Shown here one piece after another: positions 5,578-64,000 of a stretch of 64,000 bases of DNA. The stretch comes from Polyangiaceae bacterium. Lineage in GTDB: Bacteria > Myxococcota_A > Polyangia > Polyangiales > Polyangiaceae. Made by a program: the position numbers and the translations under genes. Below the pieces are notes generated by a model. It searched no databases, was not told the origin of the DNA, and saw nothing but the letters and a program-made list of their open reading frames with translations. The stretch is taken from positions 1-64,000 of the forward strand of contig JABSRN010000177.1 of NCBI GenBank assembly GCA_013214025.1, written 5' to 3'. Each line of letters starts with the position of its first letter. The first letter of the stretch is position 1.

Positions 5578-8154
5578 TTACGATTCGCCTTTGGCGAAGT
5601 GCAGCTCCCCGTCCGCGACGCTGACGGCGACGGTCTCACCGGATTCGTATTTGCCACGCAGTAGGGCGTCCGCGAGGGGATCCTGCACGTAGCGTAGGAA
5701 CGCCCTCTGCAGGGGACGGGCGCCGAGATGGGGCTCATGACCACGCTCCACCAGAAGGGCTATCGCCTCGTCGTTGATCTCGAGGCCGAGGCCCCGGGTC
5801 GCTAGCATGCTGGCAATATCGCGCGTTTGAATCGCGGCTATCTGTGTGAGCTGCGTGGGCCCCAAGGGGCGGAACATCACCGTCTCGCTGATTCGGTTGA
5901 GGAACTCCGGGCGAAAGAACTTACCGAGCTCGCCACCCAAGACCGCGTTCAGCGCGTCGAGCCCGTCCTCCGAGGAAAACGCCGACGCGCTGGCGTCGAG
6001 GATCTTAGACGATCCAATGTTGCTCGTCATGATGACAACCGTATTGCTGAAGTTGGCAAGCCGACCGCGACCGTCCGTTAGGCGGCCGTCGTCGAGCACC
6101 TGGAGCAAGAGATCGAATACATCTTCGTGCGCCTTCTCCACTTCATCGAAGAGCAAGACACTGTAGGGGCGCTTTCGCACGGCCTCCGTGAGGAAGCCTC
6201 CCTGATCGCTGTCCGCGTAACCCGGCGGTGCACCCACCAGCCTCTGGGCCATGTGGCGCTCCATGAACTCACTCATATCGAGACGTGTCAACGCCGCTTC
6301 GTCATCAAACAGAAACTGAGCCAGTGCCTTCGCCAATTCCGTCTTGCCGACGCCGCTCGGTCCTAGAAACAGGAAGGAGCCTATGGGTTTGTTAGCGTTC
6401 CGCAGGCCGACTCGTCCGCGGCGCACGGCCCGCGCGATGGCAGCCACCGCCTCCGGCTGCCCAATCACGCGTTCGCCCAAGCGGCTCTCCATCTCCAACA
6501 GTTTCGTGGTTTCCTCTTCGAGCATCTTGCTAGTGGGAATGCCCGTCCAGCTCTCCAGAACCCTGGCTATCTCGGCTTCGCCGACCGTTCGCTCCTCGTC
6601 GCCTGCGCTGGCGCTCGCGGCGGCTTCCGCGCGGCTCAGGCGGGAGGTGATGTCGCTGATGGTGACGTGCTCCAGCTCGCCGGTGCGAGCCCAGTTGCGA
6701 TCTTTTTTCGCCTTTGCGTATTCCGCTTCCGCTTCCGTTAGCTCCAAGCGAAGAGACCGAACGGCCGCCACCGCCCCCCGACGGGAGTCCAGCTCCTCAC
6801 GCCACTTCTTCACTTGCGGGCGTAAACCATCGGCTTCGGTAGCGAGGCTGGCCCGGGCCGCCACGCTTCCGGAATCCGCCGCCCCCTCGAGCGCGCCAAG
6901 TTGCGCATCCAAGGACTCCAGCCTGCGAAATGCGCGATCCGCCTCCGCGCCCACTCCGTCACTCTCGACCCGCACGGTTGCGGCGGCCTCGTCCAGCAAG
7001 TCAATGGCGCTGTCCGGCAGGAAACGATCTTGCAAGTACCGCTTCGCCAAGCGAACCGCCGCCGTCACGCCCCCCTCGGTGACCACCACCTGGTGATGGT
7101 CTTCAAACCGAGCGGCCACACCGCGCAGTATCTCTAGGGCGCCCTCTTCCTCGGGTTCTTCGATTTCCAGCGTGGTGACTTCCCGCAGCAGCGCTGGATC
7201 CTTCTCGCGGATTTTCGCCAGCCCCTGAGGAGTCGTGGTGCCGATCATGCGCAAGCCGCCCCGCGAAATGCCCCCCTTGAGCACCTCGCCCAGGCCGGGG
7301 CCCGTGCCGCCAAAAAGCTCTTCTACGCCCAACACCACGAGGATGCTGTCGCCGCGTTTCGCCAGTTTTGCCATGGCCTGACGCAAGCGATTCTCGAGAT
7401 CGCTGCGCAGCCGCGCGCCAGCACCGATGGCGCCCAAATCCAGCTCGATCAAGCGTGAGCCCGCGAGACTGGTGGTCACGTCATCGTTAGCGAGGCGCTG
7501 GGCCACCGCCTCGATGATGGTTCGCCGCCCCACCCCTGCCTCGCCGACCAGTAGCGCGCTGTTCTTCGTTTGGCGCTCGAGAATAGTGAGCAAGCGCCGA
7601 ACTTCGCCGTCGCGACCGATCACCGGAAATAGTTCGCCGTCCCGAGCCGCACGCACGAGATCCCGCGAGCCCGAGGTTGCCGGGGAGTCATCGGGCCCAG
7701 CTGTGGCCATGCGTAAGGCCGACACGTGAGAACGGAGCGAACCGGGCCCCACCCCAACAGCGCTCATGATATCGCTCGCCGGGCCGCGGATCTCCGAACT
7801 CAAAGCGTTCAGCAAGTGCTCGACGGACACTTGGGCATCGATGGCCCGACCAGCATCGCGCTCCGCCCGCCCTAGAAGCTCCAACAAGGCCTTCGACAAA
7901 TAGCTCGCCTGATCGCCGGGGGGCAGCGTCGCCATCGCGGTTTCCGTGAGGCTCGTGAGCTGCACCAGGTTCACACCCGCTTTGCGAAAGACGGCACCTA
8001 CTCCGGCCTCTCGCTCGAGCGCGACACTCAACAAGTGCAGCGGGGTCACCTCTTTATGACCGGCTTCGTCCGCCGTGGCCTGAGCTGCCACCACTAGGGC
8101 CTTGGCGGAGGCCGCGTAGTTATCCAAGCTCAGGGTGGTCGCGTCTTTTCCCAT
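5578..8154 (-). CDS. clpB: ClpB-family AAA+ protein with a degenerate first ATPase domain
   Basis: An 858-residue protein with ClpB architecture: Clp N-domain repeats (about 10-150), NBD1 (about 170-395), a coiled-coil middle domain (about 397-525) and NBD2 (about 555-858). ClpB is a cytoplasmic disaggregase working with DnaK/DnaJ. NBD2 looks active: GPSGVGKT at 598-605 and LLFDEVEKAH. NBD1 does not. Its Walker A reads GEAGVGRRT (204-212), with Arg210 where the catalytic Lys belongs; its Walker B ends VLGVEEL instead of DE; the KYRG pore loop is ARLRS (247-251) without the aromatic residue; and the tandem Arg after ALE is ALLREV. It is therefore probably a specialised paralogue or regulatory variant rather than the housekeeping ClpB. 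Confidence 0.85.
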   Translation of the reverse strand: MGKDATTLSLDNYAASAKALVVAAQATADEAGHKEVTPLHLLSVALEREAGVGAVFRKAGVNLVQLTSLTETAMATLPPGDQASYLSKALLELLGRAERDAGRAIDAQVSVEHLLNALSSEIRGPASDIMSAVGVGPGSLRSHVSALRMATAGPDDSPATSGSRDLVRAARDGELFPVIGRDGEVRRLLTILERQTKNSALLVGEAGVGRRTIIEAVAQRLANDDVTTSLAGSRLIELDLGAIGAGARLRSDLENRLRQAMAKLAKRGDSILVVLGVEELFGGTGPGLGEVLKGGISRGGLRMIGTTTPQGLAKIREKDPALLREVTTLEIEEPEEEGALEILRGVAARFEDHHQVVVTEGGVTAAVRLAKRYLQDRFLPDSAIDLLDEAAATVRVESDGVGAEADRAFRRLESLDAQLGALEGAADSGSVAARASLATEADGLRPQVKKWREELDSRRGAVAAVRSLRLELTEAEAEYAKAKKDRNWARTGELEHVTISDITSRLSRAEAAASASAGDEERTVGEAEIARVLESWTGIPTSKMLEEETTKLLEMESRLGERVIGQPEAVAAIARAVRRGRVGLRNANKPIGSFLFLGPSGVGKTELAKALAQFLFDDEAALTRLDMSEFMERHMAQRLVGAPPGYADSDQGGFLTEAVRKRPYSVLLFDEVEKAHEDVFDLLLQVLDDGRLTDGRGRLANFSNTVVIMTSNIGSSKILDASASAFSSEDGLDALNAVLGGELGKFFRPEFLNRISETVMFRPLGPTQLTQIAAIQTRDIASMLATRGLGLEINDEAIALLVERGHEPHLGARPLQRAFLRYVQDPLADALLRGKYESGETVAVSVADGELHFAKGES

Positions 8155-48068: not shown

Positions 48069-49448
48069 TCAACCCTCAGCTGAGCCGTAGCGTTTCGCCA
48101 AGGCGAGTACCTCCCGAAGGCTATCGTCCCAGGAGACGCCGTCGTCACCTTGGCATAGAAACTTCGTCAAGGCAGCATGGGCGCGCAGTGCACGATCCGT
48201 TCGCGGATCCGATCCTTCCGAGTAAGCCCCCAGGGAAATGAGATCTCGCTTGGAGTCATAGTCCGCCATCAGGGCTCGAAGTTGGGATGCCGCGTGTTGT
48301 TGCTCCGAGTTCACCAAACGCGGCATCAAGCGAGATAGAGAGCGCGGTATGTCAATCGCGGGAAAGACGCCCCGACTCGCGAGTTCCCGGCTGAGCACGA
48401 TATGGCCGTCCAACAATCCGCGCACCTCGTCAGCGATCGGCTCGTCGAGATCGTCGCCTTCGACCAGCACCGTAAAAAACGCGGTGATGGATCCGGTGCT
48501 GCCTTGTCCGCTGCGCTCCAAGAGCTTCGGCAGGAGGGCAAACACACTCGGTGGGTAACCACGACGTGCCGGTGGCTCTCCGCAAGCGAGGCCCACTTCC
48601 CGTTGGGCACGGGCCACCCGAGTGAGCGAATCGACCAACAGCATGACGTGGCGACCCTCGTCGCGGAAATGTTCCGCGATGGCGCTGGCGACCTCTACCG
48701 CCCTCAGGCGTTCCAGCGGCGGGGCATCCGCGGTCGCCACAACGATCACGGCGTTTTTTCGAGAAGCCTCGTCCAATACCTCGTCGAGGAACTCGCGAAC
48801 CTCACGCCCGCGCTCCCCCACCAAGGCCACCACCACTACGTCTGCGGAACCACCACGAGCGATGGCCCCCAGCATGCGGCTTTTGCCCAGACCCGGTCCC
48901 GAGAACAATCCGACTCGCGCCCCGCGCCCTAAGCTGAGCAAGCCGTCGATAGCGCGAATGCCGGTCGGCATGGCTTCGTCGATGGGGCGGCGTTTCAGCG
49001 GAGCCACAGAGGTGTTGGCGACTGGCACCAGGCGCGTGCCCGCCGGGAGCGGACCGTCGTCCATCGGTCGTCCCAGACCGTCGAGTATTCTACCGAGTAA
49101 CGCATCGCCTACTGCCACCCGAAGGGGAGCGCCAGAAGCGTGCACCAGATCGTTGGGACCGATGCCCGCCGGGTCGCCGAGGGACAGGAGCTGCACCTCA
49201 CCGCCGCCAAAGCCAACAATTTCAGCTAGTAATGGCTCTCCCCGGCGCTCGATGGAGGCCATGTCCCCCACTCGCGCGGCGGGCAAACTGGCTCGAATGG
49301 TTTGTGCCTGGACGGCCAGGACCCTCCCTGTGGCGGGGGCGGTAGGGGCGTCTTTCAGTTTCTGTTTCAGAACTTCAATCGGCACGAGATCTCCAAAATC
49401 GGGGGCTCCGGGGTTCCGCTCCTGCGGACTTATCCCCTCGGCTCTCAC
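48069..49448 (-). CDS. FliI/SctN-type secretion ATPase (orphan)
   Basis: 459 residues. Flagellar/type III secretion ATPases unfold export substrates at the inner membrane. Walker A is SGPGLGKS (183-190), followed by LVGERGREVREFLDE, the Walker B LLVDSLTRVARAQREV and GEPPARRGYPPSVFALLPKLLERSG. The order and the AGRL-like N-domain fit FliI/SctN rather than F1 ATPase. No other flagellar or T3SS gene is in the window, so it is orphaned or its system is elsewhere. It converges with dnaJ. Confidence 0.85.
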   Translation of the reverse strand: MRAEGISPQERNPGAPDFGDLVPIEVLKQKLKDAPTAPATGRVLAVQAQTIRASLPAARVGDMASIERRGEPLLAEIVGFGGGEVQLLSLGDPAGIGPNDLVHASGAPLRVAVGDALLGRILDGLGRPMDDGPLPAGTRLVPVANTSVAPLKRRPIDEAMPTGIRAIDGLLSLGRGARVGLFSGPGLGKSRMLGAIARGGSADVVVVALVGERGREVREFLDEVLDEASRKNAVIVVATADAPPLERLRAVEVASAIAEHFRDEGRHVMLLVDSLTRVARAQREVGLACGEPPARRGYPPSVFALLPKLLERSGQGSTGSITAFFTVLVEGDDLDEPIADEVRGLLDGHIVLSRELASRGVFPAIDIPRSLSRLMPRLVNSEQQHAASQLRALMADYDSKRDLISLGAYSEGSDPRTDRALRAHAALTKFLCQGDDGVSWDDSLREVLALAKRYGSAEG

Positions 49449-61851: not shown

Positions 61852-63522
61852 TTATCTTATATCTCCGAAATCTGCGATTGCCGTGACGTTGAGACCGCCA
61901 GGATACTGGTAGCTGGTGAACTCGCCATAGCCGATTACTTGAATGCCCACCGGACTGCCTGCCTTCAGAACGTGAGCTCCCTCGAAGGTATCGCTCAGTC
62001 GAATTCGGGTGGTCACGTAGTTGGAACAGCCGATGCTTTCGTCGCGACCGACCACCGAAGTGCCGTCCGGCAGCTCGCTCACACTCACGCCATCGAGCAC
62101 GAGGGAGGTGCCCAGCTCGTGGGTGATATCGACGAAATTGCCGCTCTGAAAGGGGCCGATGGTTCCGTCCAGATAGACCTCTTGCACAAGGTAGTCCGTG
62201 GGCGCGATGAACACATAGTGTTTGCGGTACTGCTCCACTGAGCTGACGAGGCTCTGCGCCGGGTCGCCCGCGAGGGTGCGCACATCAAGGACCGCGCCTT
62301 GTAAGAAGGTGTTGATGGCGAAAGCTTCACTGGCCAATACCTCGAAGCCCTCACTAGTATCCCAAACAGTCACCACCTCGCCCGCGCTCAAGCGGTCCGG
62401 CGCACCATTCGGTTTCGCACCCGTAGGATACTGCAGCTCGGTGCCATCCACGGCACCGTAGAATCGAATGACCTCGTCTGCCCGGTCGCCCAAGGCGCCC
62501 GACGGCAAGCCCACGAAGTAGTGACGCCCCCAGCTCTCCAGCGGCATAACAATTTCTTCGAGATGATCACAGGCCTCCATATTCGACGGCACGTAGGTGC
62601 ACGGGATGCCACTGATGACCTGTATGGGTTTGTCCGCCAACACCAAGGAGCCACTGAGGTCGGCAAAGGCAGTGCCGAAGAGTTGCACCACCTGCCCTCG
62701 GGCGAGAGTGAACCGGGTCTGCGAACCCGCGCCGGGGTTTCCGACAACTACGCCGCCGGACACCAGGTTACCCGTAGCGGACAGTTTGACCTCCACCGTT
62801 GTATTGTCTTCGGTGCCAGTGATGGCCACGAAGGGACCGAGTAAGGCGAAGCCGTCGTTATGCCAGCCTGGGTAGCCGGTCACCGAATAAGTACCGGTCA
62901 ACGCATGGGAGGGAATCAGCAGGGAGGCATCGTTGGTGTAAGAGGGCTCCAGCTCCCCGGTGTATCGCAGGGGGTTGAACTGATAGGCCGTCACCGGGAC
63001 TGAACTGGTGAGGTGATAGGCGCCGTCCAATACTGACGCCGACGGCACGGCCGTCCCAATCGCCTCCACCGCCCCTTTGAGTTCATCCACCCAGGGCAGC
63101 TCGATCTTGCGAATGGAGTTGGGAGAGATCTCGATTTCAGCATAAGGCAGGCCCGCCCGAGTGATAGAAACGAGTGCGGCTTGAGTGCCTGTGTTGGCGA
63201 CCGCCACCACAAACTCATAATTGGGATCCACCACATTGCCCGTTACGGTCGGCCAAAAATCGCAGCCCACGTAACTCCGACTGGCCTCAGCCTGCGCGCA
63301 GGTTGCCGGTTCTTCGGCGACATCTACACCTTCGGGCATCACCAGCAAGCCGTCATCCGGAAGGACCTCGTCCTCACAACCCGCAACCACGGGAGCGCTA
63401 CCGAAGGGGGACGGTTCCGGCTCATCCGACTGGGTGCAGCCCGACTGTGCCCACAGCAGTACCGCCCCAGCCAGCCATCCTGTGCGCGCTCCCCCGAGTT
63501 TCCGAGTCATCGTCACAACCAT
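61852..63522 (-). CDS. IgGFc-binding-like lipoprotein
   Basis: About 556 residues. The signal LAGAVLLWAQSGC ends in a lipobox. The body has the IgGFc-binding N-terminal pattern, VANTGTQAALVSITRAG, VTAYQFNPL, DASLLIPSHALTG, SLVLADKPIQVISGIPCTYVPSNMEACDHLEE and the C-terminal GYGEFTSYQYPGGL. The domain is common in Polyangia/Nannocystaceae-type bacteria and may bind surfaces or glycoproteins. The frame is open to 63705, but those residues overlap the LysR gene. Confidence 0.8.
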   Translation of the reverse strand: MVVTMTRKLGGARTGWLAGAVLLWAQSGCTQSDEPEPSPFGSAPVVAGCEDEVLPDDGLLVMPEGVDVAEEPATCAQAEASRSYVGCDFWPTVTGNVVDPNYEFVVAVANTGTQAALVSITRAGLPYAEIEISPNSIRKIELPWVDELKGAVEAIGTAVPSASVLDGAYHLTSSVPVTAYQFNPLRYTGELEPSYTNDASLLIPSHALTGTYSVTGYPGWHNDGFALLGPFVAITGTEDNTTVEVKLSATGNLVSGGVVVGNPGAGSQTRFTLARGQVVQLFGTAFADLSGSLVLADKPIQVISGIPCTYVPSNMEACDHLEEIVMPLESWGRHYFVGLPSGALGDRADEVIRFYGAVDGTELQYPTGAKPNGAPDRLSAGEVVTVWDTSEGFEVLASEAFAINTFLQGAVLDVRTLAGDPAQSLVSSVEQYRKHYVFIAPTDYLVQEVYLDGTIGPFQSGNFVDITHELGTSLVLDGVSVSELPDGTSVVGRDESIGCSNYVTTRIRLSDTFEGAHVLKAGSPVGIQVIGYGEFTSYQYPGGLNVTAIADFGDIR

Positions 63523-63569
63523 AAGGGAGCCTCCCAGGAAACCCAAGGGGCAACGGTGCAGGAGTCTTG

Positions 63570-64000
63570 TCAGCGGAGGTGCTCCTTGGCGATATCGATG
63601 AACGCACTCGCCGCCCGAGACATTGGGGCATCCGCTGTCACCAACGCCAAGTGCCGAGCCGGCCCGAAACCTCGCAACGGCAGCACCACCCATTTGCCGT
63701 CGCACGCGTCATCCCGGACCGATATCTCCGGCACAACACTGATTCCGAAGCTGAGCTCCACCAGGCGCTTCAACACCTCGACACTGCTCATCTCCATTGC
63801 GATCTGAGGGACCACGCCAGCTTGTTTCAACGCCCGATCCACCACCGCCCGGCTACTGGTCGTGGCATCCAGCAATAGCAGCGGGAACGCCCCCAGATCG
63901 GCGACCCGGAGAAAACTTCGACATGCCAGTGGGTGTTCTAGCGGGACGATCGCGACGTCGTCCATGCGGCTGAGTTTGTGCACACGGATCGCCCTATCCG
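63570..64000 (-). CDS. LysR-family regulator, C-terminal part (runs off the window)
   Basis: The open frame continues to the right edge. The visible 143 residues are the substrate-binding domain: DDVAIVPLEHPLACR, FPLLLLDATTSSRAVVDRAL, SSVEVLKRLVELSFGISVVPE. The helix-turn-helix would be outside. It is just downstream of nothing else visible; the surface lipoprotein gene follows it on the same strand. Confidence 0.8.
   Translation of the reverse strand, partial: DRAIRVHKLSRMDDVAIVPLEHPLACRSFLRVADLGAFPLLLLDATTSSRAVVDRALKQAGVVPQIAMEMSSVEVLKRLVELSFGISVVPEISVRDDACDGKWVVLPLRGFGPARHLALVTADAPMSRAASAFIDIAKEHLR

Follow-up and report, generated by a model that had tools for sequence, protein, structure and literature searches.

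The closest described relatives of the protein treated here are found among the Hsp100 proteins. In ClpB of E. coli, the second ATPase domain (AAA2, NBD2) is the main threading motor, with Y653 as an essential residue. The exchanges E279A, R331A and Y251A in the first ATPase domain (AAA1, NBD1) are partially rescued by derepression of the M domain, and Y251A is then near wild type (PMC6593972). ATP turnover in AAA1 has been argued to be necessary for the transfer of substrates from DnaK to ClpB, and AAA1 Walker A mutants show oligomerisation defects (PMC5319980). The residues K250, R252, E254 and E256 form cross-loop salt bridges, which are required for disaggregation by E. coli ClpB (PMC6546751). 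The exchange E432A leaves E. coli ClpB repressed and disrupts its interaction with DnaK, while Y503D is hyperactive (PMC4023160). Skd3 disaggregates with one NBD2-type domain and without Hsp70 (PMC7343390). ClpG requires both ATPase rings and its N1 domain; removal of either Walker B glutamate abolishes most of the activity (PMC8024975). The two-ring question of the Hsp100 proteins and the role of NBD1 hydrolysis have so far been studied by means of point mutants. In the clade described below, NBD1 catalysis has been removed repeatedly in nature, while the domain, the loop-linking charges and the full NBD2 were kept by selection.

Gene product and domain layout

The window is a stretch of 64,000 nucleotides from a Polyangiaceae bacterium (contig JABSRN010000177.1). 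Positions 5578-8154 of its minus strand encode a ClpB paralogue of 858 amino acids; the checked coordinates of the reading frame agree with those of the preliminary description. B2 is the label used here for the ClpB paralogue clade that contains the window protein, and B1 denotes canonical ClpB. Substitutions are numbered after E. coli ClpB, to which the window protein was aligned. All features are on the minus strand:

5578..8154, minus strand: whole gene, clpB paralogue B2 (open reading frame; best curated model TIGR03346; B2 clade tree)
7705..8154, minus strand: N domain (Clp_N), residues 1-150, retained (Pfam PF02861; structure model)
7522..7545, minus strand: NBD1 Walker A GEAGVGRR, residues 204-211, Lys to Arg and Thr to Arg (alignment)
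7390..7422, minus strand: NBD1 pore loop AGARLRSDLEN, residues 245-255, Tyr to Leu, salt-bridge charges R, R, D and E retained (alignment)
7321..7344, minus strand: NBD1 Walker B ILVVLGVE, residues 271-278, Asp-Glu gone (alignment)
7174..7200, minus strand: NBD1 Arg-finger stretch DPALLREVT, residues 319-327, first Arg retained, second Arg to Glu (alignment)
6604..6948, minus strand: M-domain coiled coil, residues 403-517, E432 to Ala and Y503 to His equivalents (alignment; structure model)
6340..6363, minus strand: NBD2 Walker A GPSGVGKT, intact (alignment)
6196..6222, minus strand: NBD2 pore loop GYADSDQGG, Tyr653 retained, Gly655-Tyr656 to Asp-Ser, invariant in the clade (alignment)
6133..6156, minus strand: NBD2 Walker B LLFDEVEK, intact (alignment)
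5893..5913, minus strand: NBD2 Arg finger RPEFLNR, intact (alignment)
5710..5724, minus strand: NBD2 sensor-2 GARPL, intact (alignment)

The best NCBIfam model is that of ClpB (TIGR03346), with 794 bits below its cut-off of 1232. Pfam matches comprise Clp_N, the lid, the AAA_2 domain of NBD2 and the D2-small domain; NBD1 gives no AAA match above the Pfam cut-off. The domain order, an N domain, NBD1, an inserted M coiled coil and NBD2, is the layout of ClpB. An AlphaFold model (mean pLDDT 85, pTM 0.51) places the strands and helices of NBD1 in the usual order, and its top Foldseek matches are structures of ClpC, ClpB and Hsp104. Retention of the NBD1 fold is predicted from this model.

The same architecture occurs in other Hsp100 types, and the ClpV model TIGR03345 matches with 564 bits. 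An identity as ClpV/TssH of a type VI secretion system, or as a ClpA/ClpC-type unfoldase for ClpP, is nevertheless scarcely credible. ClpB is the best curated model, the ClpV match lies well under its cut-off of 885, and no part of a type VI secretion system occurs among the annotated neighbours or the recurrent neighbour families inspected. The ClpA model gives 531 bits against a cut-off of 993, and the genome has a gene for ClpA proper at another locus (L002, above cut-off). An IGF/IGL-type ClpP loop was not seen in the window protein on inspection by eye.

The same genome encodes a third Hsp100-like protein of 772 amino acids, read from a TTG start (L003:1174-3492, contig C152), beside a J-domain-like gene. 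Both Walker A motifs are intact, the NBD1 pore loop GTGVRG is without an aromatic residue, and no curated family is above cut-off among its best matches. Two further genes of the window were recorded on the minus strand. Positions 48069-49448 encode a type III secretion/flagellar-type ATPase (EscN family); no other secretion genes were recognised among the reading frames scanned. Positions 61852-63705 encode a protein of 617 amino acids that contains an IgGFc-binding domain (PF17517).

Motif changes in the window protein

NBD1 differs from that of E. coli ClpB by K212R, T213R, Y251L, D278L, E279G and R332E. The preliminary description of a ClpB-like protein with a dead first ATPase domain is thereby supported, as it is by the order-wide clade of intact genes. 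It had named the Walker A arginine, the lost Asp-Glu of Walker B and the pore-loop leucine, which the alignment bears out, and an altered Arg-finger region, of which one of the two NBD1 fingers is lost and the other, R331, is retained. Since NBD1 has lost both Walker motifs and one Arg finger, the protein does not have two catalytically competent AAA+ modules. NBD2 was said to keep all its motifs. This holds for the catalytic ones: K611, T612, Y653, D677, E678, N719, R756 and R815 are unchanged and the MTSN motif is intact. It does not hold for pore loop 2, which is noncanonical (GYADSDQGG versus GYVGYEEGG in ClpB). All 33 canonical ClpBs of relatives have every one of these NBD1 residues, with Tyr or Phe at position 251, and the homologous B2 clade lacks most of them; the losses are therefore not due to chance.

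Distribution and phylogeny of the B2 clade

The sample comprised 132 genomes of the order of the window organism (Polyangiales), at least 90% complete, and 233 genomes from elsewhere in the phylum. B2 was called from at least 1036 bits with the A1 profile, on which canonical ClpBs of the order genomes reach about 1016 bits or less. According to counts made by hand from the match lists, B2 is present in 103 of the 132 order genomes and in 71 of 80 genomes of the family of the window organism. It was not found in the 233 genomes sampled from the rest of the phylum, where the top score of 1049 bits lies within the range of canonical ClpB. Canonical ClpB above the TIGR03346 cut-off occurs in 119 of the 132 order genomes; several more are partial or cut at contig ends. 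Most of the 38 nearest sampled genomes contain two ClpBs each, one canonical and one resembling the window protein. Compared with E. coli ClpB, full-length canonical proteins score 955-1025 bits and have all motifs intact, and window-like proteins score 580-735 bits. As far as sampled, B2 is specific to one myxobacterial order. No description of the clade was found in the open-access literature searched.

B2 is monophyletic with starred support in trees of the full-length proteins and of NBD2 only. The window protein falls into this clade, has a non-aromatic pore loop 1 and carries the clade pattern GY[VA]DS in pore loop 2. The phylogeny of ClpB paralogues that had been proposed as a check yielded a single clade of genes that mostly occur together with canonical ClpB. 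In the full-length tree rooted with ClpA, B2 has a long stem and branches outside all canonical ClpBs, which come from several phyla (SH-aLRT 88), the outgroup ClpBs being drawn from a scan of named genomes. On NBD2 only, a joint clade of B1 and B2 of the order was not rejected and scored slightly better (p-AU 0.59). The most economical explanation is that the gene was duplicated at the base of the order or earlier and that fast divergence followed. The age of the duplication is uncertain because of the long branches. An additional divergent ClpB with all motifs intact, L070 (G033:C603:14712-17894), accompanies B1 and B2 in one genome; its long branch groups with alphaproteobacterial ClpBs.

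A canonical clpB accompanies B2 in 97 of the 103 B2 genomes. This co-occurrence would suit a regulatory subunit, with B2 entering mixed hexamers with canonical ClpB and tuning or braking its ATPase like a pseudo-enzyme partner. ClpB hexamers do accept ATPase-dead subunits and respond to them in mixing experiments (PMC6593972). The role is unlikely all the same: NBD2 has its full catalytic machinery and a degree of conservation close to that in canonical ClpB, which would be odd for a brake, and many order genomes contain canonical ClpB without B2. Moreover, B2 persists in six drafts without a full canonical clpB in the match lists (G000, G022, G339, G109, G317 and G027), among them the genome of the window with its remnant. 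G365 was rejected as a further case, since its canonical clpB runs into a contig end next to cinA. The B2 carriers, most of them with canonical ClpB as well, include the single-contig genomes G359, G360, G361, G350, G351, G019, G322 and G036.

Stepwise losses and selection on NBD1

Depending on the analysis, 27-29 B2 proteins were compared. Traits of 27 B2 and 26 canonical proteins were mapped on the NBD2-only tree, so that NBD1 traits were left out of tree building. The aromatic residue of pore loop 1 is retained in none of the 27 B2 proteins and was lost once on the tree. Glu279 persists in 2 and Asp278 in 3 of 27. The Walker A Lys is retained in 22 of 27 (3 changes), the Walker A Thr/Ser in 16 (4 changes), R332 in 17 (5 changes) and R331 in 26. 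All 26 canonical proteins retain all these NBD1 residues. The four hallmarks were consequently not lost together, as had been supposed: the changes in pore loop and Walker B are old and nearly clade-wide, those of the Walker A Lys and the second Arg finger later and lineage-specific. Judged by this stepwise distribution, the window protein is at the far end of NBD1 loss.

Other positions are fixed or nearly so. The inter-loop charges are retained at K/R250 (26/27), R252 (27/27), E/D254 (25/27) and E/D256 (27/27). Asp655 and Ser656 of pore loop 2, which the preliminary description had missed, occur in 28 of 28 B2 proteins. In the M domain, E432 is replaced by Asp or Ala, K431 mostly by Asp and Y503 mostly by His; R491, otherwise invariant, is variable.

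Omega for the large domain of the silent NBD1 was 0.009-0.118 in 13 congeneric species pairs, comparable with B1; these Nei-Gojobori estimates, made over short regions, are rough, with none near neutrality. By this estimate, purifying selection acts strongly on the silent NBD1. The mean frequency of the top residue is 0.65 in NBD1 and 0.81 in NBD2 of B2, and 0.88 and 0.78, respectively, in B1. Measured in this way, the domain constraint is inverted in B2 relative to B1. Several independent NBD1 losses and the long end branches of the window gene and L031 could indicate a paralogue decaying towards a pseudogene. Such a fate is highly improbable, given that the frame is full-length in about 100 genomes, that dN/dS stays well under 1 in all B2 domains, that NBD2 is as conserved as in canonical ClpB and that new residues have become fixed. 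The four losses had been taken to argue for a selected change of function. Selection is upheld by the intact clade and by dN/dS of NBD1 near that of canonical ClpB, and a changed function is what the residues suggest.

Canonical clpB remnant

A paralogue search of the 184-contig draft detected no full canonical ClpB in the genome of the window. A remnant of about 170 codons (L080, about 1520-2030; G000:C2:37008-37526) directly adjoins cinA. It is 54-64% identical to the lid and M domain of ClpBs of relatives and contains no ATPase domains. Its frame is open, with no evident ATG and a possible TTG start. Full-length clpB adjoins cinA and the same next gene in several relatives (L231, L232, L240, L242, L244, L235 and L238), which identifies the fragment as an in-situ remnant of canonical clpB. 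An assembly fault may account for the loss, although both adjacent reading frames look whole. Absence of a canonical ClpB elsewhere had been named as half of a possible refutation of the changed function. It seems to apply to this draft genome through loss in situ; most relatives carry both genes, as expected for a paralogue with a different job.

With only the lid/M fragment left at the ancestral site, B2 might perform the whole disaggregase job of ClpB here, the canonical gene having been deleted. G022 is also without canonical clpB, although its cinA lies on a 338-kb contig. Replacement is considered improbable, for the B2 clade evolved and lost NBD1 catalysis alongside canonical ClpB, the B2 of this genome is among the most altered, and the fragmented draft leaves room for a faulty assembly. 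Just possibly, the remnant encodes a short trans-acting protein. A split one-motor disaggregase, in which the NBD1-silent B2 has replaced canonical ClpB and the translated lid/M fragment acts in trans, is very unlikely.

Proposed mechanism

The favoured interpretation, considered fairly probable from the sequences, is that B2 is a neofunctionalised single-motor ClpB. Within a two-tier ring, NBD2 alone would hydrolyse ATP and pull the substrate. The NBD1 tier would form a passive structural collar, its loops linked by the conserved charges, and the Leu at the former Tyr position would hold the substrate chain. B2 would probably act without hand-over from DnaK, because NBD1 ATP turnover is argued to be necessary for DnaK transfer and the M-domain residues tuning DnaK are changed; this probable independence is read from few residues. 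The substrate set would be narrower than that of ClpB, or unfolding gentler. NBD1 Walker B mutants of E. coli ClpB (PMC6593972) and of ClpG (PMC8024975) lose most disaggregation, which counts against a one-motor reading. Members that retain Walker A could still bind nucleotide in NBD1. Since Walker A mutants oligomerise poorly, B2 forms with the Lys-to-Arg change need another source of ring stability, which is the weakest step of the mechanism. If active, B2 would set what NBD1 contributes to structure and grip apart from its work as a motor, and would represent a natural one-motor Hsp100 alongside normal ClpB in most members of the order.

No gene neighbours are conserved across the clade and hence give no hint of a substrate. 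One B2 subgroup has genes for a prepilin peptidase, a phosphomannomutase-like and a PrmC-like protein divergently upstream, another a Mur ligase neighbour. A scan for sigma-32-type promoters upstream of B1 and B2 performed no better than on shuffled sequence. Downstream of B2 in some members, partly of the prepilin peptidase subgroup, a radical SAM/Cys-rich pair was observed. The gene order there is conserved in one subgroup: in L195:4541-8525, similarly in L197, L198, L203 and L204, and partly in L201. The set of four runs from a small protein with a signal-like N terminus through radical SAM-like and Cys-rich MopE-like proteins to a second small protein, with functions assigned by eye.

Comparison with known systems

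B2 and canonical ClpB (E. coli, T. thermophilus; TIGR03346) are alike in domain order, NBD2 catalytic motifs, pore-loop-2 Tyr, pore-loop-1 charges and predicted fold. In contrast to canonical ClpB, B2 has lost the hydrolysis residues of NBD1, carries Leu in pore loop 1 and Asp-Ser in pore loop 2, has changed equivalents of K431, E432, R491 and Y503 in the M domain and scores far under the equivalog cut-off. The SMXL/D53 proteins of plants are derived from ClpB and share degenerate ATPase motifs with B2; they act as signalling repressors. ClpG and ClpK resemble B2 as extra Hsp100 proteins distinct from ClpB, and ClpG works without DnaK. B2 differs from ClpG in having no live NBD1 and scores far below the cut-offs of the ClpG and ClpK models. 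Skd3 (human CLPB) shares with the proposed B2 a single NBD2-type motor. However, Skd3 contains ankyrin repeats instead of NBD1 and M domain, both of which are predicted to be retained as folded domains in B2.
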